Position numbers and translations under genes: made by a program. The notes below the pieces were generated by a model, which was given only the letters and a program-made list of their open reading frames with translations, made no database searches and was not told the origin of the DNA. A stretch of DNA of 64,000 nt from Crossiella sp. SN42 (GTDB taxonomy: Bacteria > Actinomycetota > Actinomycetes > Mycobacteriales > Pseudonocardiaceae), in contig NZ_JAMHIV010000001.1 of assembly GCF_023897065.1 (NCBI RefSeq), positions 124,001-188,000 on the forward strand, given 5' to 3'. Shown one piece after another: positions 5,403 to 24,569 of this stretch. The stretch's first letter is position 1. Each line of letters opens with the position of its first letter.

Positions 5403-7580
5403 TCAAGAAGTCTCTGGATGCCCCCGAGAGCTCATGACCTGCCGCGACAGCGCATCCTCCAATACCCGGATATATCCAGACACACCACGGCCCTGCGGGA
5501 GAAGTTGCTGATCGCGCGGCAACACCTCGTCGATCGCATCGGTTGCGGCGTGGGCGGCGTGCCAGGTGTCCACGATCATGTAATCGGCGCGGGCGACCAG
5601 TGCTCGCAACGTTGGGGTCGCTACCTTGTCGCTGTTGCCGGTCACTGTCACTGTCTTAGGAACCTGCATCCGCTGCAGTCGCTCGCGGAAGTGACCGACG
5701 GCCCCAGCCTGAAGGGTGTAGATACCGATCTCGCGTGCGGCAAGGTTCGACCAAATGGTGTCGGCTCCGCTGATCGGTACGGGAGCCGACGTCGTGGGTA
5801 GGCCCGCGTGCTCAGCCAAGTGGTCGATCTCGGTTCGTTGCCGCAGGCTCAGCCGTTCCGCGGGGAAGTCCCGGATCTGCCCAAGTACGGCGCTGACGAC
5901 GCTGATCAACGCTCCGCGTTCCGGCGCCGAGGTATCCATCAGCAGGTCAACCAGATCGATAGCCCAGTCAACCACGCTGGGGGCAGCGATCTTCGCCCAC
6001 AACTTGCCCGCGCCCTGCACCGCGTTCGCGTAGCGCTCGGGGGACGGGCCGCTCTTCAGGATGTTGCCGAGCAGGTCCAGGTAGGCGTGACGGACCGGTC
6101 CGCTCACGTTCTGCTGACTCGCGAGCACATCGAGCACCAGTTCGCAGAACTGCGCCAGATGTGGACTGGCCGTCGCGCGTGCCGCCGCCAGGCAAAGTAG
6201 GTCAAGTGCAGCGACGACTCGCTCCTGATTAGTGACCGTGGCTGCATCGAGCAGATCTTCCGCAGCCCGTTCGGCCTCGGCAGCAGTAAGCGTCGTCAAC
6301 TCGGGCCAGTCATGGTGGCTGGCCCGCAGGACGCGCTCGGCATCCGGCCAGGGACCGACCGCCACTCGACGCAGCCACGCACCCCAATCCGAACAAGTGG
6401 ACTCGATGAGCCCTCGCAAGCTATCGAGGTCCTGCTTGGTGCGACGCGTCAACGCGGGCAACCGACCTGCTGCGCGGAAACGCTCAACCTCCGTGAGCAC
6501 CGCCGCCGCATGCTCAGTGTCGTTGCTATCCAAGACAGCGTGCACCGCCGCGATGGAGGTGCCCGGTTCTGGGTTCTTGAGATACGTGTGGATGACGTTG
6601 CTGAACTGGCCACCAGCAAGCAGTTCGTGCAGGTTCGCGTCCGGACTCGCACTGGGCTGCGTGGCCTTGTGCCGTGCCAGCAATCGTTCGAGGTCCTGGC
6701 GTTCATCAAGGGTTGTCGCCTCAAGGATCCGGGCGAGTCGCCGCTCGTCGCCCGCCGTGGCCGCAGCAATCACCGCGACCTTGCGGCCGAGCGCGCCACC
6801 GGGCACGTCCACAGCGCCGATCACCGTGCCGAACTGTGAAATCAGGTCGGCCTCGGCGGCGATCTCTGTCAGCGACCGATCGGCGCCTACCGCGGAGATG
6901 TCGACCTGCCAGATCATCTCCAGCAGGAGTTCGTTGATCGCACGCGGCCTGCGGGCCTTGAGCAGGTCGCGGAAGTAGGGCAATTGCCGCAGCTCCGACC
7001 AGCGGCCGAGGCGTCCGTGCAATTCGACCGTGAGGAACCGCAAGTTCTCCGCGCTCAACTGCCCGCTGAGCCGGAGATCCGCCAGCGCGGCGCTTGCCTC
7101 CGCTGCGTTGTGCTGCAGCAAGGCGAGGCGAAAATCCCGGAGCCTGTGCAGGTGGGGAACCAGGGTGGGTCGCGGCCGGGCGTCATTCGACACGACGGTC
7201 GACACTGCGGTCCGGACCCGATCCACCAGCTTCTGTTGTTCAGCGACCCGGTGAACGTAAGTCAGGTGTCTTGCCCCAGCGGCCACGAGTTGTAGGTCGA
7301 TCGATTGCAGCTTGCCCAGCCGAGTGCTCGCCAACGCCGCCGTTGTCGGTCCGAGAAACGCATCGAGCACCTCCCGGCCGCGGCGCTGTCCCTCGAGATC
7401 GGCCGACACCAGGTAGAAGCCCTGGGGCTCGCGCTCATGCAGAGGCATGACTACCCACTCACCGGGCGCCCCGGTGAGTTTGCGGAGTTGCTCTTCGATC
7501 AACACTTCGAAGCTGTCTTGGAAGGCCTTGTACACGCTGAGATCGCCCGCGCACTGGCGCAGTTCGTCCACACTGATCAC
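5403..7580 (-). CDS. dpdD: DpdD, subunit of the 7-deazaguanine DNA restriction system
   Basis: Last gene of the eight-gene dpd operon, 725 residues, with no enzymatic motif that I can recognise. The assignment rests on position next to the PLD-type DpdK and on overall length and character, as DpdD is a large protein of unknown function in known dpd clusters. The body is mostly helical, rich in Leu/Ala/Arg with repeat-like segments. The last 110 residues look like a separate domain (AAREIGIYTLQAGAV, ALVARADYMIVDTWHAAHAA, then QLLPQGRGVSGYIRVLEDAL). ATG 7580 overlaps the stop of dpdK by four bases, so translation is coupled. In the Salmonella system DpdD is needed for restriction rather than base insertion, as far as I recall. 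It could also be an unrelated large accessory protein. Confidence 0.7.
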   Translation of the reverse strand: MISVDELRQCAGDLSVYKAFQDSFEVLIEEQLRKLTGAPGEWVVMPLHEREPQGFYLVSADLEGQRRGREVLDAFLGPTTAALASTRLGKLQSIDLQLVAAGARHLTYVHRVAEQQKLVDRVRTAVSTVVSNDARPRPTLVPHLHRLRDFRLALLQHNAAEASAALADLRLSGQLSAENLRFLTVELHGRLGRWSELRQLPYFRDLLKARRPRAINELLLEMIWQVDISAVGADRSLTEIAAEADLISQFGTVIGAVDVPGGALGRKVAVIAAATAGDERRLARILEATTLDERQDLERLLARHKATQPSASPDANLHELLAGGQFSNVIHTYLKNPEPGTSIAAVHAVLDSNDTEHAAAVLTEVERFRAAGRLPALTRRTKQDLDSLRGLIESTCSDWGAWLRRVAVGPWPDAERVLRASHHDWPELTTLTAAEAERAAEDLLDAATVTNQERVVAALDLLCLAAARATASPHLAQFCELVLDVLASQQNVSGPVRHAYLDLLGNILKSGPSPERYANAVQGAGKLWAKIAAPSVVDWAIDLVDLLMDTSAPERGALISVVSAVLGQIRDFPAERLSLRQRTEIDHLAEHAGLPTTSAPVPISGADTIWSNLAAREIGIYTLQAGAVGHFRERLQRMQVPKTVTVTGNSDKVATPTLRALVARADYMIVDTWHAAHAATDAIDEVLPRDQQLLPQGRGVSGYIRVLEDALSRQVMSSRGHPETS

Positions 7581-8107
7581 AGAAGCCCTCCGAACCGGCT
7601 GTACGCGTCCATCCTGGCTTGCGCGACGTAGGCCGGGTCGGTCTTCAGCTCCACGTCCTCTTCCAGGATGTGGATGCCGTTGAACGTGATGTTCATGCTC
7701 CCGGCCAGTGCATAGTCGTCTCCGGTCACCGCCTTCGTGTGCCTGGTCCGGGGCGAGGCCTTGTCAATCGTCACTCTGTGCGCGACGTCGAGGTCTTCAG
7801 CCAGCGTCCGTACCTGGTACTCGAACGCCTCGTTGTGCTTGTCGGTCGTGGTGCCGACGACCACGTGAGTGCCTCGCGCGGCGAGCGTGATCACGATCTC
7901 GGCGAGCCGGACCGGGCGGCGCCCAAACCGCGACAGCACCGGGTAGGTGCCTGCCGAGTTGTCAATCAGGTCCACATTGCTGATCCATGGCGATACCAAC
8001 CACAGGCACCTGCTCGGCCGCACCAACTCGGCGGTGAACAGGGCGACCAGCAGGTCGAAGACCTCAACCGAACTCTGCACCCGCGACTTGCGGACGACCC
8101 GGTTCAC
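7577..8107 (-). CDS. dpdK: DpdK, phospholipase D-like protein of the Dpd system
   Basis: A 176-residue single-domain protein of the phospholipase D superfamily. The HKD motif reads H123-T-K125-x4-D130 followed by GS (136-137) and N139 (RHTKAVTGDD then LAGSMNITFNG). One HKD copy is present, so a homodimer would be needed for a complete active site, as in Nuc-type nucleases. In the Dpd system this is the best candidate for the DNA-cutting subunit that acts on DNA lacking the deazaguanine mark; that role is inferred. Its ATG overlaps the stop of dpdJ (ATGA at 8104-8107), and its stop overlaps the start of dpdD. Confidence 0.85.
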   Translation of the reverse strand: MNRVVRKSRVQSSVEVFDLLVALFTAELVRPSRCLWLVSPWISNVDLIDNSAGTYPVLSRFGRRPVRLAEIVITLAARGTHVVVGTTTDKHNEAFEYQVRTLAEDLDVAHRVTIDKASPRTRHTKAVTGDDYALAGSMNITFNGIHILEEDVELKTDPAYVAQARMDAYSRFGGLL

Positions 8108-11100
8108 AGCGCCTCCCGCAGCAGCACGCGGACCTCGACAGAGTGGGTATTCTCGCGCAGCCCGACGGTCACCGGATGCACCAGCAGGGCGCCCACCTCG
8201 ATCGGCCGGGTCTGCAAGTCAAGCAGCACCGATCGGAGCAGGTCCCGCTCCGACTGCCGCACTGCCAACACCACTTCGCCCAGGTCCACCAGCAGTGTGT
8301 GCACCGACACGCGAGTCTGCTCGTCCCAAGTGGACAGTTCGACGACGTCTGGAGCGAGCCGGACATGCTCGCGGATCAAGTACGGCGCGATCTCCGGCAC
8401 AGTCCCGTACAGCGACGACGGCGAGCCGGGTGCCTTGCCCCACGGCCACAGCACGTTGCTCACCGCCCTGGCCCGCCTGGCCTCCTCGGTTTCCGTGCCG
8501 AGATGCAGTAGTGCGTCGATGCTCTTGTCTGCGGCAACGAGCACCCCGAAGGTCTGCGGGTCCACCGCAAGCTGGGCCGAATCGGTGATCTGGTCGCGCA
8601 ACTCCAACCAGGACCTGAGCAGGGAGACCAGGTCCGGGTGCGCGCCGGGACCCGCGACCCGGGTGCTCAACGCGGAGCGGGCGGGGCCGTCGAGCACGAT
8701 GTCGTTCTCCCGGGCGACCCGCTCAACCTCTAGCACGGCATCGCTCACCGCCTCGTGCCCATTGCGCCAGGCTCGGCGCAGTGCGTCGAGGCTGGCCGAC
8801 ACCTCCGGTGACGGTGCGCACAACAACGCGGACAGTTGCTCGTCGACGATTTCCACGGAACTGGGCAGCATCGTGTCCTCGAGCGCACGGCTGAACGCGT
8901 TCGGGTCCTGCGCCAGTGCCCGTTGGAATGCCTCGATCTGACCAGTGCCACCCGGCGAGCGCTCCGACAGCCAGAACCGGTCGTCGTGCTCAGGATCTAG
9001 GTCAACCATTACTTCGTCAGGATCGATGCCCGGACAGCAGGCCGCCAACGCGTCCAGAACCAAGTGGGCTGCGGTCACCGTGTAGGTGCGGCGCCACCAG
9101 GTAACCCACTCAGGCGATCGGTCGACGGCGAGCACCTCAGCGACTGCCTCGCGCACTGCCGCGACGACATCGTGGTCGGTGAGCCACTCCCGCCAGCTCG
9201 CCGCGCCCGTTGCGTCGTCTTGCGCCTTCCCGACGATACCCAGAGTTGCAGCGGCCGAGATCAACGCGATTGACCAGTCTTCGCTCTCACGCAGACCAGG
9301 CCCGCCAGCGTGGGAGTGGATGACCGCAGCCACAAGGATCTTCACCAGCGACTCGCGGTCGAAGACCGTCATAGTCTTCGGCAGATCCGCCTCGACGAGA
9401 ACGGCGTACCGGAGCCTAGTCGTCCGTTCCGTGGGTGTGGGCTCGCCGGGTTCGACGGGGACCTTGACCACTGCCTCCAGCGCGTCACAGTGCAGGTCGA
9501 CACCGATCGCGGCGGGTACCCACTCGGCACCGCCGATGCCGAACTCGAGCTGAACCGGCTCGGCAGTGGGATTCCACAGGGTGCCGTGCGCGGTACGCGC
9601 GAACCGGACCGCGCGCACGCCGCCACCCTGAACGTGCAGGTGGGCAGTCAGTTCCGCGAGCAGCCGCTCCGCACCTCGACCGAGTCGGATCCCATTGCCC
9701 GAGCCGAGTCTGCTGACGTGGAACTCCCAGTCCGGGGTCATCGACGACGCGTCCTTCACGTCGCGGTCGACTGCTTCGAGTGTCGCGCTCACGGGCGAAT
9801 AGACATCGACCGCTGTGTCACCCGCGTCGACGCGGTCGACGAACCTTGCCTGATATGCCGTGGTCACATCCACCCGACGCCGTGGTTCGCCGGGGGCCAG
9901 AGCCGGCAGCGGGATCCAGTGCCGCTTGTTGTCGGCGTGGACCCCGAAATGCCTGCTCACGTTTCCCGGACAGAACTCGCGCAACGCGCGGAGCGCCGGC
10001 AGGTGCTCAACCTCGTTCTTCCCGCGCTGTCCCGGCACGGTGAACTCCACATCCGGCACCAACAGGTCGTCGAACAGGTTGCCTGGAACGAAATCGCGCA
10101 GCGGGGTCCGGGTTTGCAGACCGTTGTCCATGCCGACCGGTTCGCCTTGCCAGTTGTCCTCGAGCCTGCGCAACATCGTCGGGATGACCGCGACCAGCAG
10201 AGGGCGAGGCGAATCCCACAACAAGGTGTCAACGATGGACTCAGCCAGGTCGTCGTGACCGAGTCCGAGGGCGTGCTGCAGGTGCCTGCGCAGCATGCTC
10301 CGCTTAGTGCCGCCCTCCAGTAGCTGGCGCAGTTCGGCCTGCAGTCGCAACTGACGTTTCTCGGTTGCCGCCTGTGCGGAGGCGTTGTTCGGGAACAGTT
10401 GGGCCGCGGAACCTGAGAGGTCGGTCCAGGTCGACTCCCGCTCCTTGTACCGCAACTCCATCGCGAGCCAGTCCAGCAGCGCGTACACCGCCTGGATGCG
10501 CAGGACGTAGAGGTTCTCCACCGGGATCGTGCGCGGCGGCAACTCGGGGTCGAACATGGCGTCATAGGCGTCCCACGCCTGCCGGTCACGGCCCCAGTCG
10601 CTCAACACGACGACGGTCCACGGCCGGGTCTGCACGCTTCGGCCGGCGCGCCCCTTGCGCTGCAGGAACTGCGCGGCGTCGTGCGGAGCCTTGTGCTGGA
10701 TCACCGCGCCGACCTGGTCGTCGTCGAAGCCGACCTCCAAGGTCGCCGTGGCCACCACGACCTGTGCCGAGGTGGCCACCCCTCGGTCCTGCGAACTGGT
10801 CCGGCCGATCCTCAGCGACCGGTCGGCCTCGAGCTCATGGCCGAGGATGTCGGGGAGCCACCACCGCTGCCCTGTCTCCTCGCGCGCAGCCTCCGGTTCT
10901 CGGAGGTCTGCCTTCAACCTGCTCTGTTCAGCTGACCTAAGGTGTGCCAGGGAAGTGGGCTGCCTCGACGGGATGCCAAGCCCTTCCGCGTCGTACAGGT
11001 CCCAGTACAGCCGGTTCGTGCTGTCCAACTTGTCGGTGAACACGAACACCTTGCTGCCGAAGACACCCTCGGACGACAGGGCCGGATTCATGGCGTCGCG

Positions 11101-12510
11101 AACCGGATTGTCCAGGCATCGGGCCAGCACCATGGCCGACTGGATGCTCAGGGACAGCGGCCCTGTCCGGGAATGCGGGTTGTGCCGCAGAGCGACCAGG
11201 TACTCAGCGCCGGTGACTTCCATCTCGCTCGGCTGAGGGTGCACCGCTTGCACTGTGGACGGCGCCAGGTTGACCAAACGGGCCAGGAACGACTCAGGGG
11301 CACGCAGAGTAGCGGAGAGCCCGACCCAGACCGGGTCGCGGCGCAACCGGTGCTTGAGCCTCCGGAACAGGATGGCGTTCTGCGCGCCGCTCGGCCCCTC
11401 GTAGGTGTGCACCTCATCCAGCAACACCGCAGCGAGCGGCGCAGCGCCCGCCGTCCCCGGAGGGGGCACCACACCGAATGCCACCAGGTTCCCCGGTGCC
11501 GACAGTTGCCGGTTGAGCGACTCCGTGGTGGTCAACATGACATGCGCGGGATTCCGCTGTGCGCTGTCGCGGGTCAGCCGAAGCAAGCCCCCGTCAATGC
11601 AGGCGCGGCATTCATCGTTTGTGCACTGCAGGCTTTCGCGGGCAGGCCTGGCCAAGATGTCCGAGCCGCGCCAGACAAGATCGCTGTTGCAGTGGAGGCA
11701 GCGCAGGTACGGACAGATGTAGTCTTTTCCCTTGCGCTGCCACACGAACTTGACACTGCGCGCGTCCGCTGGGGTCGGGCCGAACCACGTCGCCACGCTG
11801 AGCGTCGGCCCCGCGCCCGCGTGCGCCGCGGTCTCCAGGTGCCGCAGCAGAGCGCGCAGTTGGTCCTTGAGCAGTTCATTGCGTGGGTACAGAGCCAGGG
11901 CGAGCGTGCCGGGGGCGCGCTGTTTGGTTGCCCGGTCGGCGAGCCACGCCAGCAGTGGGAGGTAGAACGCCAGTGTCTTCCCACTACCCGTTCCGGCCGT
12001 CACGATGACCCCGGCCGGGCCGTTCCCGCACAAGGCCTTCAACACGTTCTCGGCGCTGCGCTGCTGGAACCCGGAGATCTGAGGTGGCGCGATGGCCCGC
12101 GCGACCGCCTCGCCCGCTTCATCGAGGTACTGGCGGGCGCCAGCGAGCGCCTTGTCCGCAGGCAGGTCCCGCTTCGGGCGCCGGCGTGGCCGGTGCAGGA
12201 AGCGGTGATCGAGCACGAGGGGCTTGCCTTCGGTGACCCGTTCGTGACGGAACGCTTGGCGCAACGTCGCCATCAGCCGCACCGTCTCAGCGCTGCGAGT
12301 GCGGTAGCCCTGGTTCGGCGTGCGCACCACCAAGGCCTTCTCCTCCAGACGTGCCAGCACGTCTGGGTCGGCCTCGGTTTCATCGAGAATCTGTTGGATC
12401 TCCTTGGCAGTCCACTCTGCCCCGACTGCCCCCCAGGCGAGCAACTCGGCCTCGCGTAGTTCCAGCCGCGACAACGCGTCCAGATCACGTCGGAGTTGTT
12501 CGTCAACCAC
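8104..12510 (-). CDS. dpdJ: DpdJ, large DEAD/DEAH-box helicase of the Dpd system
   Basis: A helicase of about 1468 residues. An N-terminal winged-helix-like stretch precedes the motor. Walker A TAGTGSGKT lies around residues 170-180, motif II is LLDEVHTYEG (DEVH), and motif VI QFLQRKGRAGR is in the second RecA domain. Between motifs I and II sit two cysteine pairs, CPYLRCLHC and CTNDECRAC, likely a zinc knuckle inserted in domain 1. The remaining 800 residues are a large C-terminal region of unknown fold. The architecture resembles Lhr/YprA-type helicases with zinc inserts. The GTG at 12510 overlaps the stop of dpdI by eight bases and is preferred to a farther upstream start at 12579, which would overlap more of dpdI. 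It probably remodels or translocates DNA for restriction. Confidence 0.88.
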   Translation of the reverse strand: MVDEQLRRDLDALSRLELREAELLAWGAVGAEWTAKEIQQILDETEADPDVLARLEEKALVVRTPNQGYRTRSAETVRLMATLRQAFRHERVTEGKPLVLDHRFLHRPRRRPKRDLPADKALAGARQYLDEAGEAVARAIAPPQISGFQQRSAENVLKALCGNGPAGVIVTAGTGSGKTLAFYLPLLAWLADRATKQRAPGTLALALYPRNELLKDQLRALLRHLETAAHAGAGPTLSVATWFGPTPADARSVKFVWQRKGKDYICPYLRCLHCNSDLVWRGSDILARPARESLQCTNDECRACIDGGLLRLTRDSAQRNPAHVMLTTTESLNRQLSAPGNLVAFGVVPPPGTAGAAPLAAVLLDEVHTYEGPSGAQNAILFRRLKHRLRRDPVWVGLSATLRAPESFLARLVNLAPSTVQAVHPQPSEMEVTGAEYLVALRHNPHSRTGPLSLSIQSAMVLARCLDNPVRDAMNPALSSEGVFGSKVFVFTDKLDSTNRLYWDLYDAEGLGIPSRQPTSLAHLRSAEQSRLKADLREPEAAREETGQRWWLPDILGHELEADRSLRIGRTSSQDRGVATSAQVVVATATLEVGFDDDQVGAVIQHKAPHDAAQFLQRKGRAGRSVQTRPWTVVVLSDWGRDRQAWDAYDAMFDPELPPRTIPVENLYVLRIQAVYALLDWLAMELRYKERESTWTDLSGSAAQLFPNNASAQAATEKRQLRLQAELRQLLEGGTKRSMLRRHLQHALGLGHDDLAESIVDTLLWDSPRPLLVAVIPTMLRRLEDNWQGEPVGMDNGLQTRTPLRDFVPGNLFDDLLVPDVEFTVPGQRGKNEVEHLPALRALREFCPGNVSRHFGVHADNKRHWIPLPALAPGEPRRRVDVTTAYQARFVDRVDAGDTAVDVYSPVSATLEAVDRDVKDASSMTPDWEFHVSRLGSGNGIRLGRGAERLLAELTAHLHVQGGGVRAVRFARTAHGTLWNPTAEPVQLEFGIGGAEWVPAAIGVDLHCDALEAVVKVPVEPGEPTPTERTTRLRYAVLVEADLPKTMTVFDRESLVKILVAAVIHSHAGGPGLRESEDWSIALISAAATLGIVGKAQDDATGAASWREWLTDHDVVAAVREAVAEVLAVDRSPEWVTWWRRTYTVTAAHLVLDALAACCPGIDPDEVMVDLDPEHDDRFWLSERSPGGTGQIEAFQRALAQDPNAFSRALEDTMLPSSVEIVDEQLSALLCAPSPEVSASLDALRRAWRNGHEAVSDAVLEVERVARENDIVLDGPARSALSTRVAGPGAHPDLVSLLRSWLELRDQITDSAQLAVDPQTFGVLVAADKSIDALLHLGTETEEARRARAVSNVLWPWGKAPGSPSSLYGTVPEIAPYLIREHVRLAPDVVELSTWDEQTRVSVHTLLVDLGEVVLAVRQSERDLLRSVLLDLQTRPIEVGALLVHPVTVGLRENTHSVEVRVLLREAL

Positions 12511-13222
12511 GGTTCTGCCCTCGCCCCCTACTTGCGGACTGCCGGACCGCGACAATGCGGAACTCCCCGGCGACCCCATTCGCCGTGAGCCAGGACACTA
12601 CCGCTGGGGTCAGCGCGGACAGTTCGACCCCCTCGCTCCGGGTCGCGGCGTTCACGAAGGCATGGACCTCCTCGGGCAGCCGGGTCGCCAGCCGGTCGAG
12701 CGCCGCGGCCGCGGTGGCCACGATCTCCATCGCTTTCTCGTCTGGCAGCGCCGTTTGCACCCTGGACAGGGCGGTCAGCGCGCTCTCCACCTCCGCCGCG
12801 ATCTCGGCGAGCCCGAGAGCCGCCCTCGTCACGTGGACGAGGCCGCCCAAGTTCGCGCTGCTTCCCGTCAACCGGCCGACAAAAGCGCCCCACGCCGACT
12901 TCACCTCGGCCTCGAGTCTCCCGACCAAGCTGTCCAGTTTCTTCTCCGCCCCCTTCCACGGACGGTCCTCAAACGACTTGCGCACGGCCGCCACCAGGTT
13001 GAAGACGTCATCTGGCAGGTTCGTGCCTGGCCACCACTCGCTCCGGCCGACCTCGGCGGCCGCAACCAGCCTGGTCACCCTGCGGGTCAACCTGGTCAGG
13101 TCGATGTCCACCTGCTGCAGCTGGTTCATCCGGTCCTGCATAGCTTTCTCGTCGCTCGCTCGGTTCACCATCTGCGTCGCACGGGTGAGCCACTCAGGCA
13201 ACTGGCTAGACATCGACGACAC
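12503..13222 (-). CDS. dpdI: DpdI-position protein, helical, unknown function
   Basis: A 239-residue, mainly alpha-helical protein with no catalytic motif; leucine, alanine and charged residues alternate as in coiled-coil or four-helix adaptor proteins (for example RMNQLQQVDIDLTRLTRRV). It is identified as DpdI by position between the ATPase DpdH and the helicase DpdJ, as in described dpd clusters, where DpdI is also uncharacterised. Two starts are possible, GTG 13222 or ATG 13213, both overlapping or abutting the dpdH stop. It may bridge the two motor proteins; that is inference. Confidence 0.65.
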   Translation of the reverse strand: MSSMSSQLPEWLTRATQMVNRASDEKAMQDRMNQLQQVDIDLTRLTRRVTRLVAAAEVGRSEWWPGTNLPDDVFNLVAAVRKSFEDRPWKGAEKKLDSLVGRLEAEVKSAWGAFVGRLTGSSANLGGLVHVTRAALGLAEIAAEVESALTALSRVQTALPDEKAMEIVATAAAALDRLATRLPEEVHAFVNAATRSEGVELSALTPAVVSWLTANGVAGEFRIVAVRQSASRGRGQNRG

Positions 13223-16200
13223 CCGCCTTATTACCCAGTGCCAGCAACGACTGGCTCAGGTCGTCCAGCTTCGTTCGCACGCGCTGTTCCAGTTCTTCCA
13301 CGTCATTGGATTCAGGGGTGCTCCGCCGGCACTCTTCCTCGGTCCGCGCCACGGCCTCGCGGACCACTCTCATCGCTTCGGCGGCCCGGATCATCGCGCC
13401 GGCCCAAGACTGGACGCGGACGGCGTTGTCGAGGACGTCGACCGCGGCCGGCGGACGCCAGGTCAAGGGGAGGTGGTCCGGAGTGCTGCGGAGGACCTCA
13501 AGGGAAGACAAGAACGCGTTCTTTCCGTCGGCGGGCCGGAAGAACCCACTTTTCACTGCTTGCCTACCCAATTCCTCCGCAGGTGCCACCACTGCCCGAG
13601 GCTTGACACCCTCGAGCGCGTCGGTCAGCGTGGCCTGCGCTTCGATGACCGATTCCATGAGTTCGGCCCCGGCCTGTTGAATGGCGGTAAGCAAGCCCTT
13701 TGCGTTTTTGGCCAACTGCGGCACGATCGCTTGCATGTCCTCCACTACGGCCCGGAGGAACGCAGTCGGAGCCATAACGGCATCGAGCAGGTCCGTCTCG
13801 AGCGTGACGAAGTCGACCAACTGGGGGTCGCCTGTGCCCTGGCGCGCGCTGGCGAACCCGGCGACGATGTCAGTGATCATGCGGTCGTCCAACAGCGCCC
13901 GGGCGGCCGCGGCCGCGTCTTCCCAGCTATCGGCGACTCCCAATGGCACCGCCTCGGCGAGCGCATCCCCCAGGGTGGTGAGATCCCGTGGATCCGCCCC
14001 ACAACACATCAACGCGATCGCCCGAACGCCAACGGCGGCCCGTGCCAGCTCCTTCGCCCGCACCTTGGCGAGAAAACCAGTGCGAACCTGCTCGGCCCAG
14101 TCGTCGAGCCGGGTCTCCAGGCTGAGCATGAGGTCGTGTGGCTCGAGGCCCCTGGGCCACTCCCAGTTTCCGCTGTACCGATCCCAGTGCCCATGGTCGG
14201 CATACCACTTGGCGGCAGCAAGGACCTTGACGTCCTCGGAACTGCGTTCGAGGGTGAAGGTGATGCTGCCCGCGCCTGCCCGCTGGCCATAGGCATCAGG
14301 ACCGAAGTAGAACGACGTCTGCTTGAAGTAGTTGCCGAACAGGTCGTCGATGAGGCCGCTCGACCGGCGGTGAACGAGATCACGATCCAGGTCAAGCCGC
14401 GCAAGAACCAGTGTGTACAGAATGGGGCGATACATCTTGACGTCCCGATCCGACAGTTGTGATCCAGTCTCCCACTGGAACAGCGATTGGAGCGGGCTCG
14501 GCAGCGACGGCTTTTGCGGCGGCGAGTTCGTCGGGACGACGCCAGGTTGGGCACGCGAAACTGGCTTCGCAACGACAACAGGCCGCGCCTGTTCGACCGG
14601 ATCCGAACCGGACTTGTCCGCTAGGCCGAAGGCCTCCAGCACCACGGGATTCGGGTGTTGCTCGGCGCCCCACAACACCGCGGCTCGGAAATACCGATCA
14701 CCTTCCTCCCCGGTCCTACCGTTGAGCAACGCCGACTTCGGCAACTTGTGCTGGTGGTCGAACCGGGTGAAGGCACGCTCATGCGGGAAGGTTCCCCGCC
14801 CCAGGTGCGCGTACGCCTCAATAAGGGTATCGGAAACGCACTCGTTGATGTCACTGCGCGGCGTCCTGGGTTTGTCCGGAGTAGTAGGTCGCTCCAGTGC
14901 TCGTTTCAGCGCCGCCTCGTTGTACGGATAAAGACCGACCTGGCCCAGGCCGTCGATCTCCACGGTGCCGAATCCAGCGTGGCAGCGCGATCGCATCGGG
15001 CATGGTGCGCCGTCCGGACCACTGTCGCAGGCGTTGGGCAGCCAAGTGTCGTCGTCCCGATCGGCACGGCGCCACAACGTGTCGACCCGGTCGTTGCCCA
15101 ACCGCACCAGGTTGAGGTAGCGCGCGATGAATGCCTCACGCTGTGGCAAGGCGTCCTCGGAAACCGCGAACTGATGGGTGATCCGGGTGCCGACCGTACG
15201 GACGATTTTCTTGAACGGGCCGTCCGTGACAGCGAAGACGGCCCTCAACGGCGCCATGTCCTCGCCTGGCTGGGTGGCGAACTGGTCATACAACTCACCG
15301 CCGATGAGGCCGAACTGAGCGAGGTCCTCGAACAGCAGGACCAACTCCCTGCCCTTGCTGCGCAGGGTTTTGCGGGCCTCGCGGAAAAGGTCGTCGAGGT
15401 TCTCGCCATCGGGCGCACGCAGTCCAATGGCCGCGGACAAACCGTGTTGGACGGCCTGGTTGAGCACTTCCAGCGCTTGCTGGGGCTCGTGGGAGACCAC
15501 GTCCCACAGTGCGGCCAGCTCATCAAACTTGGCGACCGCGCCGCGGACGCCGGGCTTGCCCAGCGGAAGGTCACTGCGCTGGAACTCGACTGTGTCGCGC
15601 CGGGACACCTTGTCCAGCAGCGAATTGACGATGACGTCGAGGGTTCCGCCGGGCTGCAGGAGCGTCTCGTTTACCTTGGTCACCTGCAGCAGATCGGCCA
15701 GGCCATGTCTGCGCTTGCCGCTTGCGTCCGGCACGCCCAACAACAAGTTGCGGTCGATGCGGGCATCACGCTCTTCGTCCGTCTCGTCCGGATGGGCCTG
15801 TTCTGGTTCGAGTGTCCAGGTGAGAGCAAACCGCGTTTCCTCCAGCAGTCGGTCGCGCAACTGCTCCGGGCTAGTTCCGGCAACCGCGTTCTCCACCCGG
15901 GCCAAGAGCTCGCTGCCGCCGGCGGTGGGCAGCCCATCGACGATGCTACGGAGAAGGTCGCGGATGGTCTGTACAGCGCGGGGCACGTACAAGACGTGGC
16001 AGTTGGCCAGTTCCGTGGGCCAGTGAGCATGTACCCAGCGCACGACATGGCTCTTGCCTGCTCCGGACTCGCCGGTCACCGCGATCAGGGTGTTGCGATT
16101 AACGTCGCCCAACCCAGCCCGTAGCGCCCGCAACACGTCCCGCTCGGAGCCGTCGCCCTCGGCGATCTCCACTCCACTCAGGTGGGACAGGACCATCGGA

Positions 16201-16316
16201 GTGTGCGCGGCGAGGAACAGCGCGTCGGCATCACTGGGCAGCGCGCCGATGTCGGAGTAGACAGTGCTGCGGACCGATTCCGCCGTCCAGCAGCGGAATC
16301 CCTTGAGCGTGGTCAT
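13206..16316 (-). CDS. dpdH: DpdH, large P-loop ATPase of the Dpd system
   Basis: About 1036 residues. A P-loop ATPase of the AAA/STAND style: Walker A TGESGAGKSH at about residues 81-90, then HVVRWVHAHWP, and a Walker B-like strand LVLLFEDLAQFG. A cysteine group (NACDSGPDGAPCPMRSRC) in the middle may bind zinc. The long C-terminal half is helical. In published dpd clusters DpdH is the large ATPase next to DpdG. ATG 16316 overlaps the dpdG stop in an ATGA arrangement and is therefore preferred over upstream in-frame starts. Its likely role is ATP-dependent control or assembly of the restriction complex, which is not visible from sequence. Confidence 0.85.
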   Translation of the reverse strand: MTTLKGFRCWTAESVRSTVYSDIGALPSDADALFLAAHTPMVLSHLSGVEIAEGDGSERDVLRALRAGLGDVNRNTLIAVTGESGAGKSHVVRWVHAHWPTELANCHVLYVPRAVQTIRDLLRSIVDGLPTAGGSELLARVENAVAGTSPEQLRDRLLEETRFALTWTLEPEQAHPDETDEERDARIDRNLLLGVPDASGKRRHGLADLLQVTKVNETLLQPGGTLDVIVNSLLDKVSRRDTVEFQRSDLPLGKPGVRGAVAKFDELAALWDVVSHEPQQALEVLNQAVQHGLSAAIGLRAPDGENLDDLFREARKTLRSKGRELVLLFEDLAQFGLIGGELYDQFATQPGEDMAPLRAVFAVTDGPFKKIVRTVGTRITHQFAVSEDALPQREAFIARYLNLVRLGNDRVDTLWRRADRDDDTWLPNACDSGPDGAPCPMRSRCHAGFGTVEIDGLGQVGLYPYNEAALKRALERPTTPDKPRTPRSDINECVSDTLIEAYAHLGRGTFPHERAFTRFDHQHKLPKSALLNGRTGEEGDRYFRAAVLWGAEQHPNPVVLEAFGLADKSGSDPVEQARPVVVAKPVSRAQPGVVPTNSPPQKPSLPSPLQSLFQWETGSQLSDRDVKMYRPILYTLVLARLDLDRDLVHRRSSGLIDDLFGNYFKQTSFYFGPDAYGQRAGAGSITFTLERSSEDVKVLAAAKWYADHGHWDRYSGNWEWPRGLEPHDLMLSLETRLDDWAEQVRTGFLAKVRAKELARAAVGVRAIALMCCGADPRDLTTLGDALAEAVPLGVADSWEDAAAAARALLDDRMITDIVAGFASARQGTGDPQLVDFVTLETDLLDAVMAPTAFLRAVVEDMQAIVPQLAKNAKGLLTAIQQAGAELMESVIEAQATLTDALEGVKPRAVVAPAEELGRQAVKSGFFRPADGKNAFLSSLEVLRSTPDHLPLTWRPPAAVDVLDNAVRVQSWAGAMIRAAEAMRVVREAVARTEEECRRSTPESNDVEELEQRVRTKLDDLSQSLLALGNKAGVVDV

Positions 16317-17233
16317 GTTGCCTCCAGGACCCGGATGTGACTGACGACGCGGTCCCACTCACCCAACCGCAAGACCACACTGGATGTGGCGTCCGCAGTA
16401 GCCAACAACTCGATCTTCTTGATGTGTGCGAGCTTGTTCAACGCGAGCGCGAGAGAACCACCGACATAAGCCGTGTCAGGGGGCTGCGGGAGTCTGGCAG
16501 CCAACCGTGGACTCAGTACCGGTACCAGCTCTTGCGCGTGGTGGAGCCACTGGTTCGCTTCCGCATGGCGAGGCAGCGCCGGCAACACATGGCGCAACGC
16601 ACGGGAGCAATCGGGGGCCAGCAGTGGCTTCCGGCCAATCTCGGTCGCCGCCACGAGGCCAAGCGTCCTAGCCCACCGAGTGAACTGCGGCCACTGGGAA
16701 CTGTTTCCGATCGCGGACTCCATCTGCGCGGTCTTCACCACCGCTTCGGCCTCGGCCCAAGCGGTGGGGAGCCGCTCGTACGGGTCGAGGGCACACCACC
16801 ACGCAAGCCCCATCGCCACGTCCGAGGGCTTCGTCCCGGACTCCAGGTCCGCGATCGCAGTGGACCCGATGGCTCGCAATACGGCCGAATAGAAGGCGTT
16901 GGTTCGTTCCGGCGAGTCGACCAACAGCCCGGTGTTGGCGTTCGGGCCAAGCGACCACACTTCAGGGGAGTCCCCGCTCGCGGTCACCATCCCCAGGTGC
17001 TCCCCCACCTTCAACGAGGGCAGCAATGCGGTTTCCTTGGGACTACTCTGCCGCACCAGCAGTTCCGGCTGTAGGTCGCGTTGCAACTCGACGATGGTCC
17101 GCCCTCCTGGACGGGAGCCGAGTCGGCGACAGATGATCAGTAGTGCCTGCGCGCTTGCGCGGACATGGGTCTTGAGGAAGTCCACGAGATCAGTCTCCGA
17201 GAATCTGCAAGGCGATGTTCGCATCGAGTGCAC
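16313..17233 (-). CDS. dpdG: DpdG, unknown-function component of the Dpd system
   Basis: A 306-residue protein without recognisable catalytic residues. The N-terminal 100 residues look like winged-helix or adaptor helices, and the C-terminal end (ELLATADATSSVVLRLGEWDRVVSHIRVLE) looks like a small mixed alpha/beta domain. It takes the DpdG position between the RecQ-like DpdF and the ATPase DpdH. GTG 17233 has a GAGGGA ribosome-binding site and overlaps the end of dpdF by 44 bases; ATG 17224 and GTG 17185 are alternatives. The 3' end is coupled to dpdH. Confidence 0.7.
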   Translation of the reverse strand: MHSMRTSPCRFSETDLVDFLKTHVRASAQALLIICRRLGSRPGGRTIVELQRDLQPELLVRQSSPKETALLPSLKVGEHLGMVTASGDSPEVWSLGPNANTGLLVDSPERTNAFYSAVLRAIGSTAIADLESGTKPSDVAMGLAWWCALDPYERLPTAWAEAEAVVKTAQMESAIGNSSQWPQFTRWARTLGLVAATEIGRKPLLAPDCSRALRHVLPALPRHAEANQWLHHAQELVPVLSPRLAARLPQPPDTAYVGGSLALALNKLAHIKKIELLATADATSSVVLRLGEWDRVVSHIRVLEAT

Positions 17234-19742
17234 GCAGGTCCCTCACCACGTCCTTGCCGTCGATCCTGGCATCCGACGGGACGAGGAGGATGTCCACGGG
17301 CGGCCGCGCCGGATCTCGGGCTCGCAGCCGAGTGGCGCGGTTGAACCAGGAAGCAGTGATCCGCACTCCGGGTGGGTAGACGACAAATACGCCGCGCGGG
17401 GTGAGCGCCCAGGGAGATACCGGTGCGGGGTCGACGAACAACCTGTCCCCGGCACCGAACTCGCCGACAGGACCAGCCAGGTGCCTGATCCCCCGCCGGA
17501 CGAGCGATTTCGCCAGGCGAGGGGCGATCGCCACGGGATCGGCGGCGGCAAGAACGATCAGTCCCGGGTAGGTTTCGGCCGCCGATACCAGGTCGTCGAG
17601 GTTGAGGTCTTCCTCGCCCAGTACCCACTTCTGCAAGGGGCGCGGGGCAGGATCACCGGGCGGCGCGACCCTGTCCTGCCGACACTGCGGACAGCGACCG
17701 CACTTTGCCTCAGGTGCGACCCACCGAGCCGCATCGCCGTGCCGTTGCCAGACCCGTTCATCCGGTTGGTAGGAGTCCGCGATGCCAGCACACGCGGAGA
17801 CCTCGCCCGTGACCACGCGACGCATGATGGTCAGCGATGCCTTAGATCGCTTCCACTGTTCTCGCTGCCAAGGCCTCCAGTGAACCTTCCAGAATTCCTC
17901 TTCGCCAAGGTCGGACCGGATCGGCTCGACAGCCACCCAGTCCGGTCGCGCCTCACCTTCCCCGCGCAACTCGAGGAGGTCGTCGAAGTCGACCCGGCGG
18001 TGTTCGACAGCACCCAACTCCACCAGGCCCTGCACCAGTTGCACGTTCCACTTGCGGTTGTAACTGCCCTCCTCGGCCGCACCGCTGCTGCCTTCCAGGT
18101 CAAGGAAGTGCCCGTGCGGGAGTTCCGTTCGGTGTGCCCACAGGTCGCGCCAGCGCCTCTGCGCGACCTCGGCTGACAGGACTTTCGTGGCAAGCTGTGC
18201 GGCTTGACGAAGATCCTTGGGACCGGTCAGCAGGAAGCCCGCGCACGCGTGACCGTCTCGACCGCCACGGCCCAACTCCTGGTACCACCGGTCGACGGTC
18301 TCGGGCAGACAGGCGTGCACCACGGTACGGATATGGGCGTAGTCGATGCCCAGGCCGAACGCGGAGGTGGCCACTACCAGGTCGGTACGCGCGGGTTGCT
18401 CGGGAGTGCTTCGAAGAGCGGCCAGCACCTGGGCGCGGTTGTCGTTGGTCGTCTTGCTGCTGACAACGGACAATCGTTGATAGCCGGTCTCGCGGAGTCG
18501 CGTCGCCCATCGGTCCGCATCCTCCGGACTGGTGACATAGAGAATGGCCGGACGCGGCACGTGGGCGAGAGTCTCCAAGACCTTGGCGTCCCTGTCCTCG
18601 GTGCTCCCGGACTCGGCAAGCCACACGTCGGGTTCCTGGCGCAGGGCGTTCGCCGCGATAAGCGCGGTCGGGCCAGGGGATCCAAACAACAGGTGCAGAT
18701 CGTTGAGTTCCGCTGCGCCAAGAGTCGCGCTGAGCAGCAGGGTCACCGGGAGCCGGACGGCCGCCGACTTCGCTTCGTCCAACAACTCTCGCCTGAGACT
18801 GGCCAGGGTACGAAACTCCGGCCGGAAGTCGCGTCCCCACTGGGTGACCAGATGAGCTTCGTCGATGACCAGCCCGCTGAGGCGGCCGCGTCCCGCGGCC
18901 TGCTTCAACGTATGGCTCAGCGACCGGGTCACCGACTCCGGCGAAGTCACCAAGATGCGCTGCCTGCCCTCAGTGACCGCGAGGCGAATGCGCTGCCTCG
19001 TGTCCTCAGGGGTATCGGCGGTCCAGGCGAATACGAGGTCGTCTCGGTTGATCCGCTCGTTCCGGCTCGCATAGTGGTCGCGGAACCGTCGCTCGAAGTC
19101 CTGCGCCAACGCTACGGTCGGCACGACGATGAGGCAGACGCTGTACTTCCATCGCTCGGCGAGACACAGGGCGACCTCGGTCTTGCCGGAACTGGTCGGC
19201 AGCATCGCGGTGATCGTGCTACCCGGAGCTGCGGTCATCGCGGCGCGCACGGCAGCCTGCTGGCCGGGTGTCCGGTACGACGTGAACCCGGTGATGTCAA
19301 AGAAGAACGGATCGGCAGGGAGGCCGGCTTGACTGAAGCGGGCCTCACCGGGAGTACCGGCGAGCGCAGCGCCGTCTGGTCCGCCGCTGTGCTTGTCGGC
19401 AGTGTCAGCAAGCCAGGTGGGCTGCCACGCCATCGCCTGCCAGTGGTCCGGGGTGCGCTCGACCAAGTCCGCCGCCTTCGCCGCCCGTAGCCGAGAGGAC
19501 AGGCTGGGTGAGGTGATCACGTGCTCCAGCCGGTTGTCCGCCCGGCTCCACCGGCGTACCAGGTGCCGGATAAGGACAGCGACGTCCAGATCACTCCCGT
19601 CGTCCGGCACGCGACACAGATGGGCGACCCGCGAGTACAGGTCGTCCGTGAAGGAGTCCGCGCCGGTTGCAGGATCCAGCAGGACCGCACGGAGTTGGTC
19701 TTCCTCAAGGGGGCGCAAGGACTTGGTCGCCGATCGCCTCAT
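17190..19742 (-). CDS. dpdF: DpdF, RecQ-like DNA helicase of the Dpd system
   Basis: About 850 residues. After a 150-residue N-terminal extension come the superfamily 2 motor motifs: PTSSGKTEV (Walker A, about residues 182-190), LVIDEAHLVTQWGRDFRPEF (DEAH box with the RecQ-type 'aromatic-rich' WGRDFRPEF loop), SATLGA (motif III), and ELGRGGRDGHACAGFLL (motif VI, RecQ style QxxGRxGRDG). A four-cysteine cluster CGRCPQCRQD near residue 680 follows. These features together support the RecQ-like DpdF. ATG 19742 overlaps the stop of dpdE (ATGA), which decides the start over a GTG 30 bases upstream. It probably unwinds or translocates on target DNA. Confidence 0.9.
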   Translation of the reverse strand: MRRSATKSLRPLEEDQLRAVLLDPATGADSFTDDLYSRVAHLCRVPDDGSDLDVAVLIRHLVRRWSRADNRLEHVITSPSLSSRLRAAKAADLVERTPDHWQAMAWQPTWLADTADKHSGGPDGAALAGTPGEARFSQAGLPADPFFFDITGFTSYRTPGQQAAVRAAMTAAPGSTITAMLPTSSGKTEVALCLAERWKYSVCLIVVPTVALAQDFERRFRDHYASRNERINRDDLVFAWTADTPEDTRQRIRLAVTEGRQRILVTSPESVTRSLSHTLKQAAGRGRLSGLVIDEAHLVTQWGRDFRPEFRTLASLRRELLDEAKSAAVRLPVTLLLSATLGAAELNDLHLLFGSPGPTALIAANALRQEPDVWLAESGSTEDRDAKVLETLAHVPRPAILYVTSPEDADRWATRLRETGYQRLSVVSSKTTNDNRAQVLAALRSTPEQPARTDLVVATSAFGLGIDYAHIRTVVHACLPETVDRWYQELGRGGRDGHACAGFLLTGPKDLRQAAQLATKVLSAEVAQRRWRDLWAHRTELPHGHFLDLEGSSGAAEEGSYNRKWNVQLVQGLVELGAVEHRRVDFDDLLELRGEGEARPDWVAVEPIRSDLGEEEFWKVHWRPWQREQWKRSKASLTIMRRVVTGEVSACAGIADSYQPDERVWQRHGDAARWVAPEAKCGRCPQCRQDRVAPPGDPAPRPLQKWVLGEEDLNLDDLVSAAETYPGLIVLAAADPVAIAPRLAKSLVRRGIRHLAGPVGEFGAGDRLFVDPAPVSPWALTPRGVFVVYPPGVRITASWFNRATRLRARDPARPPVDILLVPSDARIDGKDVVRDLRALDANIALQILGD

Positions 19743-22700
19743 GACGCCGGCCAGAGCACGACCCCGCCACATGCGACGACCGACACTGCCGGGCGGATGA
19801 TGCCTTTCACGAGCGCCGCACCCAACGCCTCCTCCCGATCCATGTCGTGCTTGGCACCCTCCCGCTCAGCTGCCGTGGGCAACCGGTGCGACCGGGCTAG
19901 CAGGACTTTGAGTCGGGCGTTGACTTCCACCTCGGCTCGCCGCGCGGCCTCGGCTGGACGTTCAGTCAGCCCTGGATGCGCACGCAGGTGTTGCTCGGCG
20001 AACTGGTAACTTGCCCGGCACTGGCCTGCCCAGTCCGGCAACGCACCCAGCACATGGGCCCAGTTCGGCCCACGCAGCACGTGGTCGGCGCCCTCGGTGA
20101 ACGGCGTGTCGAGCACATCGGCGGCCAGGCGCGGATTGGCCACGCCATCGATGCTGGTCCAGGTTCGAATGACCTCCGGGGGAAGCAGTGCGTCACCTCG
20201 CCTGCGCAGGCGTCGTCGGACCGCAGGGGTCTCCGCGTCGAGGTGCGCCGCGTCGAACTCCACCAAGAAGTCACAGGCCAACCACAATTCGGGGAGTTCT
20301 ACCGCACTGGTCTTGCGGACGATCGCCCTGGTACGGCCACGTTCGTCCATACGCAGGTGCTGATCGAGCCAATCCACCAATGGTTCGCCGATGCGTAACA
20401 ACGGTTTCCGCTCGGACACCGCCACATCCCGAGCGTAGGCGCGTGAAGTGCCGAGGAGCGGAATGACTTCTTGGGAGGCGGCCTCGGAGAGTCCGGGCAC
20501 CCGGCGGGCTTGAGCGTGTCCGGACTTGCCGTTGCCGACCTCGAACCGCACCAGCCCATCCGGCTTCCCGTCGACGGGCTTGAGCCAGATCCCGCCCCGC
20601 CGTGACGAGGTCAGTCGTTTGAAAGCCGCACGAAGTCCGGCGGCGTCGTCGTCGGTCGCAGTCAACTCGGCCATCCCGGCGTCGTCGAAGTCGGTAGCGG
20701 TGGTGACCGACTCCAATTCCTCCAGCAAGTCGACCTGTTCCCGTTCGTTCTCGAAGTCCGTCCTCAGCGCTTGCAGGTCGGGGGCCAGTGCCTGGCTGCC
20801 GCGCTCGATCAAGGAGTCGATCATGTCGGCCCGCATGCGGTTCAGTCTGATTTGCAGTGTGGCCACCGAATCGGCGAAGATCCCGACTCCGTCACGAAGC
20901 AACTCGACCTGCCGCGTCTGCCAGTCGCTGTCCGGCTCCTCGAACACCACCACCTCGGCCCGATCGCCGCGTTCGGTGAACCGGTCGAGTCGACCGATCC
21001 GCTGCTCCAACCGGTTGACGTCCAGCGGCAGGTCCAGATTCACCAGCACTTGCGCCCGCTGCAGGTTCCGGCCCTCCTCCAGGGTGAAGTCGCCGACGAG
21101 CACCTGCACGACCCTAGACTCCAGAAAATCCTCCACCGCGGTGTTCCGGTCCAGCCGGGACATGTTGACCAGGTGACCGCGGACCTTGCCAGCCCATCGG
21201 TCGGACGCTGCCGCCAGAAAGTCCGCGACGACGGCCGTTGCAGTACCGACGACCACGACCTTATGCCCGTCGCGCACCCGATCGTCGACAACGTCGAGCG
21301 CCGTTCGCTGCCTTGTTCCGATGTCCGCCATGGCGAGTCGCGCAGCGGTTCGCTCTGCGAGGGCACGCAGGTGGGCGGGTGGGCCGGCCGCCGGGTCCAC
21401 TGCCAAGTCATTCCGAAGGTAGTGCGCCAACGCCTGCGGTCCGGCCAGGGCGACGTTCACCACCTTCGCGAACTCCTCGCCATCGTCCGAACCGGTCCAC
21501 CGTTCCCGCAGGCTTTCCAAATATTGGTCAGCGATCTCTCGAGCCGGGTCGGCGAGTTGGATGTAGGTTGCCCGCCGTCCGGCGACCGGGTAGCCGCGCG
21601 CGGACTCGCCGCCCCGGCGGTGGCGGATCATCCGCCTGCTGATCCGATAGGTCTCCCGGACGTACTCAGCCAAGGTCCGCCATACTTCGATGTCCGATTC
21701 ATCGGCTGCGCGACACTGTTGCGCCATCCGGGCGAAGACCTGATCCGATCCGTGCAGCGACTCCAGATCTGCGAGAGCGTTGCGGCGCTGTCGGGGTGTG
21801 GCGCGCCGCAGCCCCAGCACGCGCACACTGTTGGCCGAGGACGCACGGTGCTCCATCCGCTCTCGCAACGCCGTCTCGTCGGCGATGGGGAAGGCGACCG
21901 GGTCGATAAGGTTCAACAGCCCCAGGAAGGTCGTCAGGTCGCCCCGCATTGGGGTAGCCGACAGCAACAGCAATGCACGGGTGCGCTGCAGCAACTCCCA
22001 TATCCTCGGGGCCTCCCGCAGTGGACGGATCGTCTTGTGCGCTTCGTCGACGATCACTAAGCCGTAGCGGCCCAGGTCCTTTCGGTGGGGAAGTTCCTCG
22101 TGCCGAGTGATCAGAACTCGGCGCTGCTCGATGGCAGTGCCGAGAGCCAAGCGCTCGGTCAGTTCCTCCTGCCATTGCTCAACGAGCGTGGCCGGCACAG
22201 ACACCAGTGCAACCATCTTGGGATCGTCGAGCAGCAACTGCCGTAGCACGAGTCCAGCCTCGATGGTCTTGCCCAATCCGACCTCGTCAGCAAGCAGATA
22301 GCGCATGACCGGGTCGCCGAGCACACGGGCCGCGGTGTCCAGCTGGTGCTGGTAAAGCTTGATCGGTGCGGACATCGCAGCGGTCAGGCCCCGGGAGGCA
22401 CCGCGTTGGCGGACCAAGTGCTCGAAGAAGTCTCTGCGGGTCGTGTAGTACTCGGGAGAGTCGCAGAGTCCGGTCGCCAACGCCTCGACCGGGTCACACA
22501 GCGGCCTGTTCCAACGCACCATCAGGCGAGCGCCCGGTAGTCGCACATCCGTACCCGACCCGCTGACCCGAACCCAGTACTCGCTGAAGCCAGTTTGCGC
22601 GACGATCTCGGCCGCGACCCAACCGTAGTGGGCACCCTTGATCCACACCGGGGTGCCGAGCGAGAACCTGGGAAAAGTGATCTGCTCAAGCGGGACGACG

Positions 22701-22870
22701 ACCCGCTTTTCCGCCACTCCAGGTATATCGACGTAGACGACCTGCGCACCGTTCGGAAGCTTCGCTTTGCAGAACCCGAAGCCTAGACCGTTACCTTCGA
22801 CTTGGACCCAGTTCCCGACATATCTGCTCGATGGCGAACTCTTCAGCAAACCCGCGCGCCCGTTCGACAT
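19739..22870 (-). CDS. dpdE: DpdE, SNF2-family helicase-like ATPase of the Dpd system
   Basis: First gene of the dpd operon, 1043 residues. The N-terminal 160 residues include small beta-barrel-like segments (FSLGTPVWIKGAHYGWVA) as in RapA/SNF2 proteins. The motor follows: ADEVGLGKT at about residues 194-202, LVIVDEAHK (DEAH at 275-278), SATPMRG (motif III), and QRIGRLDRFT (motif VI). The DEVGLGKT and QRIGRLDR motifs are diagnostic of the SNF2/RapA group. It would be a DNA translocase acting in restriction of DNA that lacks 7-deazaguanine. ATG 22870 is preceded by an unusually perfect ribosome-binding site. The operon order from here is E, F, G, H, I, J, K, D. Confidence 0.9.
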   Translation of the reverse strand: MSNGRAGLLKSSPSSRYVGNWVQVEGNGLGFGFCKAKLPNGAQVVYVDIPGVAEKRVVVPLEQITFPRFSLGTPVWIKGAHYGWVAAEIVAQTGFSEYWVRVSGSGTDVRLPGARLMVRWNRPLCDPVEALATGLCDSPEYYTTRRDFFEHLVRQRGASRGLTAAMSAPIKLYQHQLDTAARVLGDPVMRYLLADEVGLGKTIEAGLVLRQLLLDDPKMVALVSVPATLVEQWQEELTERLALGTAIEQRRVLITRHEELPHRKDLGRYGLVIVDEAHKTIRPLREAPRIWELLQRTRALLLLSATPMRGDLTTFLGLLNLIDPVAFPIADETALRERMEHRASSANSVRVLGLRRATPRQRRNALADLESLHGSDQVFARMAQQCRAADESDIEVWRTLAEYVRETYRISRRMIRHRRGGESARGYPVAGRRATYIQLADPAREIADQYLESLRERWTGSDDGEEFAKVVNVALAGPQALAHYLRNDLAVDPAAGPPAHLRALAERTAARLAMADIGTRQRTALDVVDDRVRDGHKVVVVGTATAVVADFLAAASDRWAGKVRGHLVNMSRLDRNTAVEDFLESRVVQVLVGDFTLEEGRNLQRAQVLVNLDLPLDVNRLEQRIGRLDRFTERGDRAEVVVFEEPDSDWQTRQVELLRDGVGIFADSVATLQIRLNRMRADMIDSLIERGSQALAPDLQALRTDFENEREQVDLLEELESVTTATDFDDAGMAELTATDDDAAGLRAAFKRLTSSRRGGIWLKPVDGKPDGLVRFEVGNGKSGHAQARRVPGLSEAASQEVIPLLGTSRAYARDVAVSERKPLLRIGEPLVDWLDQHLRMDERGRTRAIVRKTSAVELPELWLACDFLVEFDAAHLDAETPAVRRRLRRRGDALLPPEVIRTWTSIDGVANPRLAADVLDTPFTEGADHVLRGPNWAHVLGALPDWAGQCRASYQFAEQHLRAHPGLTERPAEAARRAEVEVNARLKVLLARSHRLPTAAEREGAKHDMDREEALGAALVKGIIRPAVSVVACGGVVLWPAS

Positions 22871-23467: not shown

Positions 23468-23499
23468 CTCGCGGCGACGGCGTTGACTGGAACGGTGCG

Positions 23500-23726: not shown

Positions 23727-23811
23727 TTCGCCGCCGCCGTGCGCCTTCACATGCCGAGACCGGTACCGTACTCTCCGTAACGGAGATGGCACCGTCTGGG
23801 CCGGGGAACCT

Positions 23812-24559: not shown

Positions 24560-24569
24560 TCAGCGCCGC

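Follow-up and report, generated by a model that had tools for sequence, protein, structure and literature searches.

Dpd islands such as those of Salmonella Montevideo and Kineococcus radiotolerans contain the families dpdA-C and dpdD-K along with genes for the synthesis of 7-cyano-7-deazaguanine (preQ0), as far as the available portions of the reports describe them (PMC11888242, PMC12707154). According to these and a third, likewise partial source, DpdA and DpdB insert preQ0 into DNA, DpdC makes 7-amido-7-deazaguanine (ADG), and the remaining eight genes restrict (PMC11888242, PMC12839542, PMC12707154). These islands keep modification and restriction together. We analyzed a 64,000-nucleotide stretch of the genome of Crossiella sp. 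SN42 (contig NZ_JAMHIV010000001.1, positions 124,001 to 188,000; hereafter, the window; 9.72-Mb assembly G000, 82 contigs), which harbors the same restriction families in an operon, and found the two halves separated by megabases in this species. Tight linkage is generally considered necessary for most restriction-modification systems, because a cell that keeps the nuclease after losing the modification gene dies. Very probably, the window operon belongs to a complete Dpd system, of which it forms the restriction half, with the two halves at unlinked genome sites.

Two Dpd loci in Crossiella

The original prediction, made from the window sequence, identified eight minus-strand genes as the Dpd restriction set E-F-G-H-I-J-K-D without the DNA-modification genes, and proposed that the latter either lie at a second locus or that the set recognizes something else. 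All eight open reading frames (ORFs) were present on the minus strand at window positions 5403-22870, and NCBIfam and PADLOC profiles confirmed the set, with DpdG and DpdI as its weakest members. A search of the genome for the modification genes led to another contig, C56, which encodes dpdA, two dpdB, dpdC, folE2, queC, queD and queE. The sole DpdA match of the genome (C56:18943-20157; 604 bits, cut-off 200), both DpdB matches (405 and 523 bits, cut-off 300) and the sole queE-type match are found there, so the window lacks dpdA, dpdB and queE, as predicted. The absence of modification genes is thus true of the window locus and untrue of the genome. A second locus, the simpler of the two solutions, resolves the puzzle; no support was found for recognition of something else, the view of the operon as a lethal orphan was rejected after dpdA was found on C56, and the overall interpretation of the original prediction is partly supported.

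The physical distance between the loci was assessed in a genome of the same species assembled as one 9.17-Mb contig (G055), which has dpdA at 1,157,551 and dpdJ at 4,396,879, that is, 3.24 Mb between the loci. This excludes that the operon merely continues outside the window, and the 20 kb past the left end of the window (L004) gave no dpd or que match. The presence of the modification genes and the distance of the loci within the species indicate a split but complete Dpd system rather than an orphan. Membership in a single island, a usual though not strictly defining feature of Dpd systems, was not observed, with the halves of the SN42 system on different contigs. An artifact of assembly, in which neighboring loci are hidden by a contig gap, could be suspected from the 82 contigs of SN42 and from two other genomes (G045 and Streptomyces G300), where both halves end approximately 0.5-2 kb from contig ends. 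We give this explanation almost no credence, since the contig ends of SN42 leave at least ~143 kb between the halves and two single-contig genomes separate them, G055 and, by 4.17 Mb, G231.

Both loci align between the two Crossiella genomes with ~95% DNA identity over the operons. The ratio of nonsynonymous to synonymous substitution rates (dN/dS) was 0.03-0.46 in 16 of 16 genes, and 0.14-0.46 in dpdE, F, G, H, I, J, K and D; both halves are under purifying selection. Among the G055 copies, only those of the DpdB1 ORF (facing residues 51 and 69) and the QueE ORF (facing residue 3) contain stops; these precede the profile-matched parts, indicating that the called starts of the two ORFs are too early. 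A decaying or silent restriction operon, tolerated at a distance for that reason, would be in line with the lack of linkage and with a third-codon GC content below that of most neighboring genes. Decay is highly improbable given the eight intact reading frames, the absence of stops in the restriction genes of the sister strain, the dN/dS values, and the conserved helicase and DpdK motifs.

The restriction operon comprises the following genes (window coordinates; aa, amino acids):

19739-22870, minus strand: dpdE, SNF2/RapA-like ATPase, 1043 aa; P-loop DEVGLGKT and DEAH; NCBIfam NF041062, 765 bits; PADLOC, 1158 bits
17190-19772, minus strand: dpdF, RecQ-like helicase, 860 aa; P-loop LPTSSGKT and DEAH; NCBIfam NF041063, 605 bits
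16313-17233, minus strand: dpdG, 306 aa; NCBIfam NF041064, 76.9 bits (cut-off 80); no PADLOC match; operon position
13206-16358, minus strand: dpdH, P-loop ATPase, 1050 aa; GESGAGKS; PADLOC, 1172 bits; NCBIfam, 370 bits (cut-off 450)
12503-13222, minus strand: dpdI, 239 aa; NCBIfam, 32 bits (cut-off 150); weak PADLOC match, 7.8e-5; operon position
8104-12579, minus strand: dpdJ, large helicase, 1491 aa; AGTGSGKT, DEVH and two CxxC; NCBIfam NF041067, 1191 bits; PADLOC, 1302 bits
7577-8107, minus strand: dpdK, phospholipase-D-type nuclease candidate, 176 aa; HxK and GSMN; NCBIfam NF041068, 173 bits
5403-7580, minus strand: dpdD, 725 aa; NCBIfam NF041061, 387 bits

DpdE, DpdF, DpdJ, DpdK and DpdD passed the curated NCBIfam cut-offs. 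The PADLOC match of DpdH spans nearly the full protein, and its Pfam match to AAA_22 was above the cut-off, with AAA_16 slightly below. Because the DpdG and DpdI matches are sub-threshold or weak, their identity is based on operon position together with these profile matches. Inspection of the protein sequences showed intact motor motifs in DpdE, DpdF, DpdH and DpdJ. In DpdK, residues H123, K125 and GSMN136-139 are invariant in 14 of 14 aligned sequences, and its profile matched the mitochondrial cardiolipin hydrolase PLD6 in the PDB (4ggj and 9lkx). The structure model of DpdD is mostly helical with short alpha/beta ends (mean predicted local distance difference test score, pLDDT, 85), and its profile had no match among PDB sequences; DpdD may perhaps serve as a scaffold.

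The E-F-G-H-I-J-K-D order is shared with relatives in which the two halves are linked and with a Nostoc plasmid. The helicase domains of DpdE and DpdJ also match the DrmD, DrmA and BrxH models of the DISARM and BREX defense systems, with scores far below those for their own Dpd families. In DISARM, the helicase is accompanied by DrmB and a methyltransferase. Among the best 25 PADLOC matches listed per protein, neither of these was present for the eight proteins of the operon or for two neighboring proteins, and the DISARM and BREX entries were all helicases.

The region upstream of dpdE (window 22909-24570) contains ORFs without Pfam matches. DNA similarity to G055 stops here, between 23258 and 24535, and the break is possibly an old island edge.

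On C56, folE2-queD-queE-queC on the minus strand diverge from dpdC-dpdB1-dpdA-dpdB2 on the plus strand. The gene starts below are those of the ORF finder, and some are probably too early:

13743-14327, minus strand: YhhQ-like transporter (weak match)
14355-15233, minus strand: folE2; 211 bits (NCBIfam cut-off 215)
15137-15538, minus strand: queD, above a cut-off
15493-16248, minus strand: queE, above a cut-off
16125-17054, minus strand: queC, above a cut-off
16887-17825, plus strand: dpdC; PADLOC, 378 bits; no NCBIfam match
17570-18946, plus strand: dpdB1, DpdB profile
18811-20217, plus strand: dpdA, DpdA profile
20210-21334, plus strand: dpdB2, DpdB profile

DpdA of SN42 matched the solved DNA-guanine transglycosylase 7ui4 (7e-118), and retains the CxCxxC motif and two aligned aspartates that we take to be the catalytic residues. 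The whole genome has no match to the tRNA-type transglycosylase family (PF01702), and thus we found no other known use for the preQ0 genes. The duplication of dpdB around dpdA distinguishes this locus from the Dpd islands of S. Montevideo and K. radiotolerans. Additional dpdB copies were already reported in the available text of a previous survey (PMC11888242). DpdB1 and DpdB2 of SN42 are 36% identical, which suggests that they may have distinct roles. Two dpdB-like genes also flank dpdA (B1-A-B2) in 78 of 80 named actinomycete loci described below. Approximately 6 kb past the modification locus is a Cse1 gene (Pfam PF09481; C56 27405-28973, equal to L003 7405-8973), and a type I-E CRISPR system may therefore adjoin it.

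Linkage and co-occurrence across genomes

We assessed the co-occurrence of dpdA and dpdJ in 297 genomes of the family, probably Pseudonocardiaceae, drawn evenly from 46 genera. DpdA and DpdJ were each above cut-off in 13 of these genomes, and these were the same 13 (Fisher p 6e-23, relatedness ignored). In a class sample of 394 genomes, each was found in the same three, two of which are among the 13 of the family; in 35 Streptomyces genomes, the genus of G300, DpdJ was found in two, both with DpdA. Overall, dpdA was present in 16 of 16 dpdJ-bearing genomes of the three samples. The reverse situation does occur: Actinomadura sp. J1-007 (L100) has dpdA and no dpdJ or dpdB match in its genome. 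At this locus dpdA is accompanied by queC, queE and queD, with no dpdC within 10 kb.

These counts bear on the alternative that the eight genes act as an orphan, independent of the distant locus, and sense something other than absent 7-deazaguanine, for instance phage replication intermediates. The lack of linkage would suit such a role, as would the free exchange of restriction classes among modification lineages described below and a Nostoc plasmid that carries the restriction genes but no dpdA. Moreover, a helicase-nuclease defense system that senses DNA damage is exemplified by Hachiman, in the parts of the reports accessible to us (PMC10925250, PMC12278908). If the operon were independent of the distant locus, genomes with dpdJ and without dpdA would be expected, but dpdJ above cut-off never occurred without dpdA in any of the 13 family genomes, the one further class genome and the two Streptomyces genomes. 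We therefore consider an orphan function very unlikely, and retain the restriction half of a split Dpd system as the identity of the window operon.

Linkage varied among the 13 family genomes, seven being split, five linked (G059, G126, G155, G208 and G294) and one undecided (G045, where the halves end ~1 and ~2 kb from contig ends). The split genomes include SN42 and G055, which are one species, and G231, with both halves on one contig. In G135, G166, G254 and G291 the halves are on separate contigs, and the positions of the contig ends imply a minimum distance ranging from about 17 kb (G291) to 55 kb (G166). We also analyzed named actinomycete dpdA loci (the best 80 of 219), in 75 of which restriction genes were found within 10 kb of dpdA. 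The five remaining loci are those of G166 (L033), G135 (L034, with only a 74-bit DpdE match nearby), G291 (L037) and Actinomadura, and L049, which is undecided since the halves end 0.5-2 kb from contig ends. Linked loci thus prevail in this sample (75 of 80), and the clear split cases all come from this one family.

The modification locus of G166 (L022/L033, matching Actinokineospora inagensis) lacks queD, queE and dpdB1 and has a partial dpdB2. In the same genome, contig C17 carries queE at ~1.2 kb from a weak match to the DpdA profile, and DpdB-like genes are at the ends of C47, C48 and C79.

Several results weigh against a complete but split system. DpdG, DpdH and DpdI are below the NCBIfam cut-offs, but are in place in the operon; at the modification locus, FolE2 is also below its cut-off and DpdC is supported by PADLOC and not by NCBIfam. 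A fold search of the PDB with the DpdD model gave a single match at E≤0.001 (4.8e-4, template modeling score 0.16) and nothing convincing, and the DpdG model (pLDDT 81) gave nothing at this threshold; its weaker matches, none of them confident, include winged-helix regulators. When the right flank of the operon was searched in the three congeners G016, G086 and G108, no clean empty insertion site was found. The regions compared with the window (40 kb around one match in G086; 40 kb and 20 kb around two matches in G108) each had one match longer than 250 bases and no synteny on both sides. The co-occurrence is based on 16 genomes, some of them not independent, with G300 picked for having dpdA. 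Finally, plasmid p057_I of Nostoc sp. C057 (NZ_CP040290.1; L135 9380-30695) carries dpdE-F-G-H followed by an unnamed gene and dpdJ, then several small genes, and finally dpdK and dpdD; no dpdA match was found on the plasmid, the only replicon of this strain searched. It is the sole one of nine DpdJ-bearing plasmids without a DpdA match.

The C56 locus resembles the restriction-less dpd islands of the GATOR-GC survey in being a modification locus without restriction genes nearby. The survey, in the part of its text available, required dpdA and dpdB with a 20-kb window extension (PMC11888242), and a restriction operon located elsewhere in the genome would count as missing under these settings. 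Surveys requiring dpdAB nearby can thus undercount restriction operons.

Restriction classes and a proposed coupling through the DNA mark

A DpdJ tree of 44 modules resolved five groups, each with a support of 100 in the Shimodaira-Hasegawa-like approximate likelihood ratio test (SH-aLRT). These classes are R1, which includes the window operon (12 rows), R2 (23), R3 (4), R4 (2) and R5 (3); 27 of 71 rows, all R2 by score, were left out by hand. Among 94 loci examined, every locus with two or more clearly assignable genes (75 of 75) was uniform in class across those genes, one genome being counted twice (G126, equal to L035); the other 19 were not assignable, five of them having no restriction genes. 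This uniformity indicates that the restriction half moves as a block.

To compare this with the modification half, the classes were mapped on a DpdA tree of 43 rows (the 13 family genomes and 30 of the 80 named loci, chosen for known class). The classes were scattered over this tree and required 17 changes, against a minimum of 4 and a shuffled mean of 18.9 (40 of 300 shuffles were as low), in a tree where the omission of many R2 rows inflates the apparent mixing relative to the shuffles, where including them is not expected to reduce the 17 changes, and where G155 is labelled R2 though it also holds an R1 module. Individual cases illustrate the exchange. Three Saccharothrix modification modules with 87-92% DNA identity over 7.5 kb accompany three different restriction classes, R1 (G126, linked), R3 (G291, split) and R2 (L036, linked). 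G208, G155 and Nocardia aurea have near-identical DpdJ proteins (branches 0.04-0.10), although the DpdA of N. aurea is distant from that of the other two. The single dpdA of G155 is accompanied by two restriction modules, one linked (R2) and one on another contig (R1). On these sequence comparisons, the restriction half is best read as an exchangeable cassette that is swapped between lineages as one block while the modification half stays.

Beyond the gene content, split, co-occurrence, block-wise exchange and selection obtained here, we infer from the protein families a mark, its recognition and a nuclease. FolE2, QueD, QueE and QueC at the distant locus would make preQ0, DpdA with DpdB would swap guanine in DNA for preQ0, and DpdC would convert it to ADG. 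The motors DpdE, DpdF and DpdJ and the ATPase DpdH would scan DNA and the candidate nuclease DpdK would cut it, these proteins together with DpdD, DpdG and DpdI attacking unmarked incoming DNA and being blocked by the mark. As the signal shared by the halves would be a base mark on DNA, they would need no linkage; the restriction half could then travel, be replaced as one block, and persist only in genomes with a resident modification locus. The split and the block replacement predict that the mark alone couples the halves, and this coupling would best explain an unlinked, swapped restriction half. More tentatively, and with somewhat less than even confidence, we propose that the restriction half is a self-contained cassette that is exchanged horizontally and can be licensed by any resident 7-deazaguanine modification locus; its five diverged classes would read the same mark, depend on no partner protein of the modification half, and move alone, even on plasmids.

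These results describe a complex restriction system split over megabases, with the restriction half replaced as a block among close relatives. The remaining interest lies in the persistence of this half without linkage to its modification counterpart and in its exchange between lineages; swapping restriction classes on one modification background becomes directly testable. Neither split Dpd loci nor exchange of restriction classes appeared in the titles and abstract beginnings of the literature matches listed, a set that does not cover the core Dpd papers, and the terms dpd and deazaguanine are absent from the main text of a study of defense systems in Actinobacteria (PMC10482375).

The DpdA proteins of Mycobacterium asiaticum and M. 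bohemicum (L106, L107) are sisters, and the restriction classes of these loci differ, being R1, as judged by DpdJ scores, and R4, as placed in the DpdJ tree.

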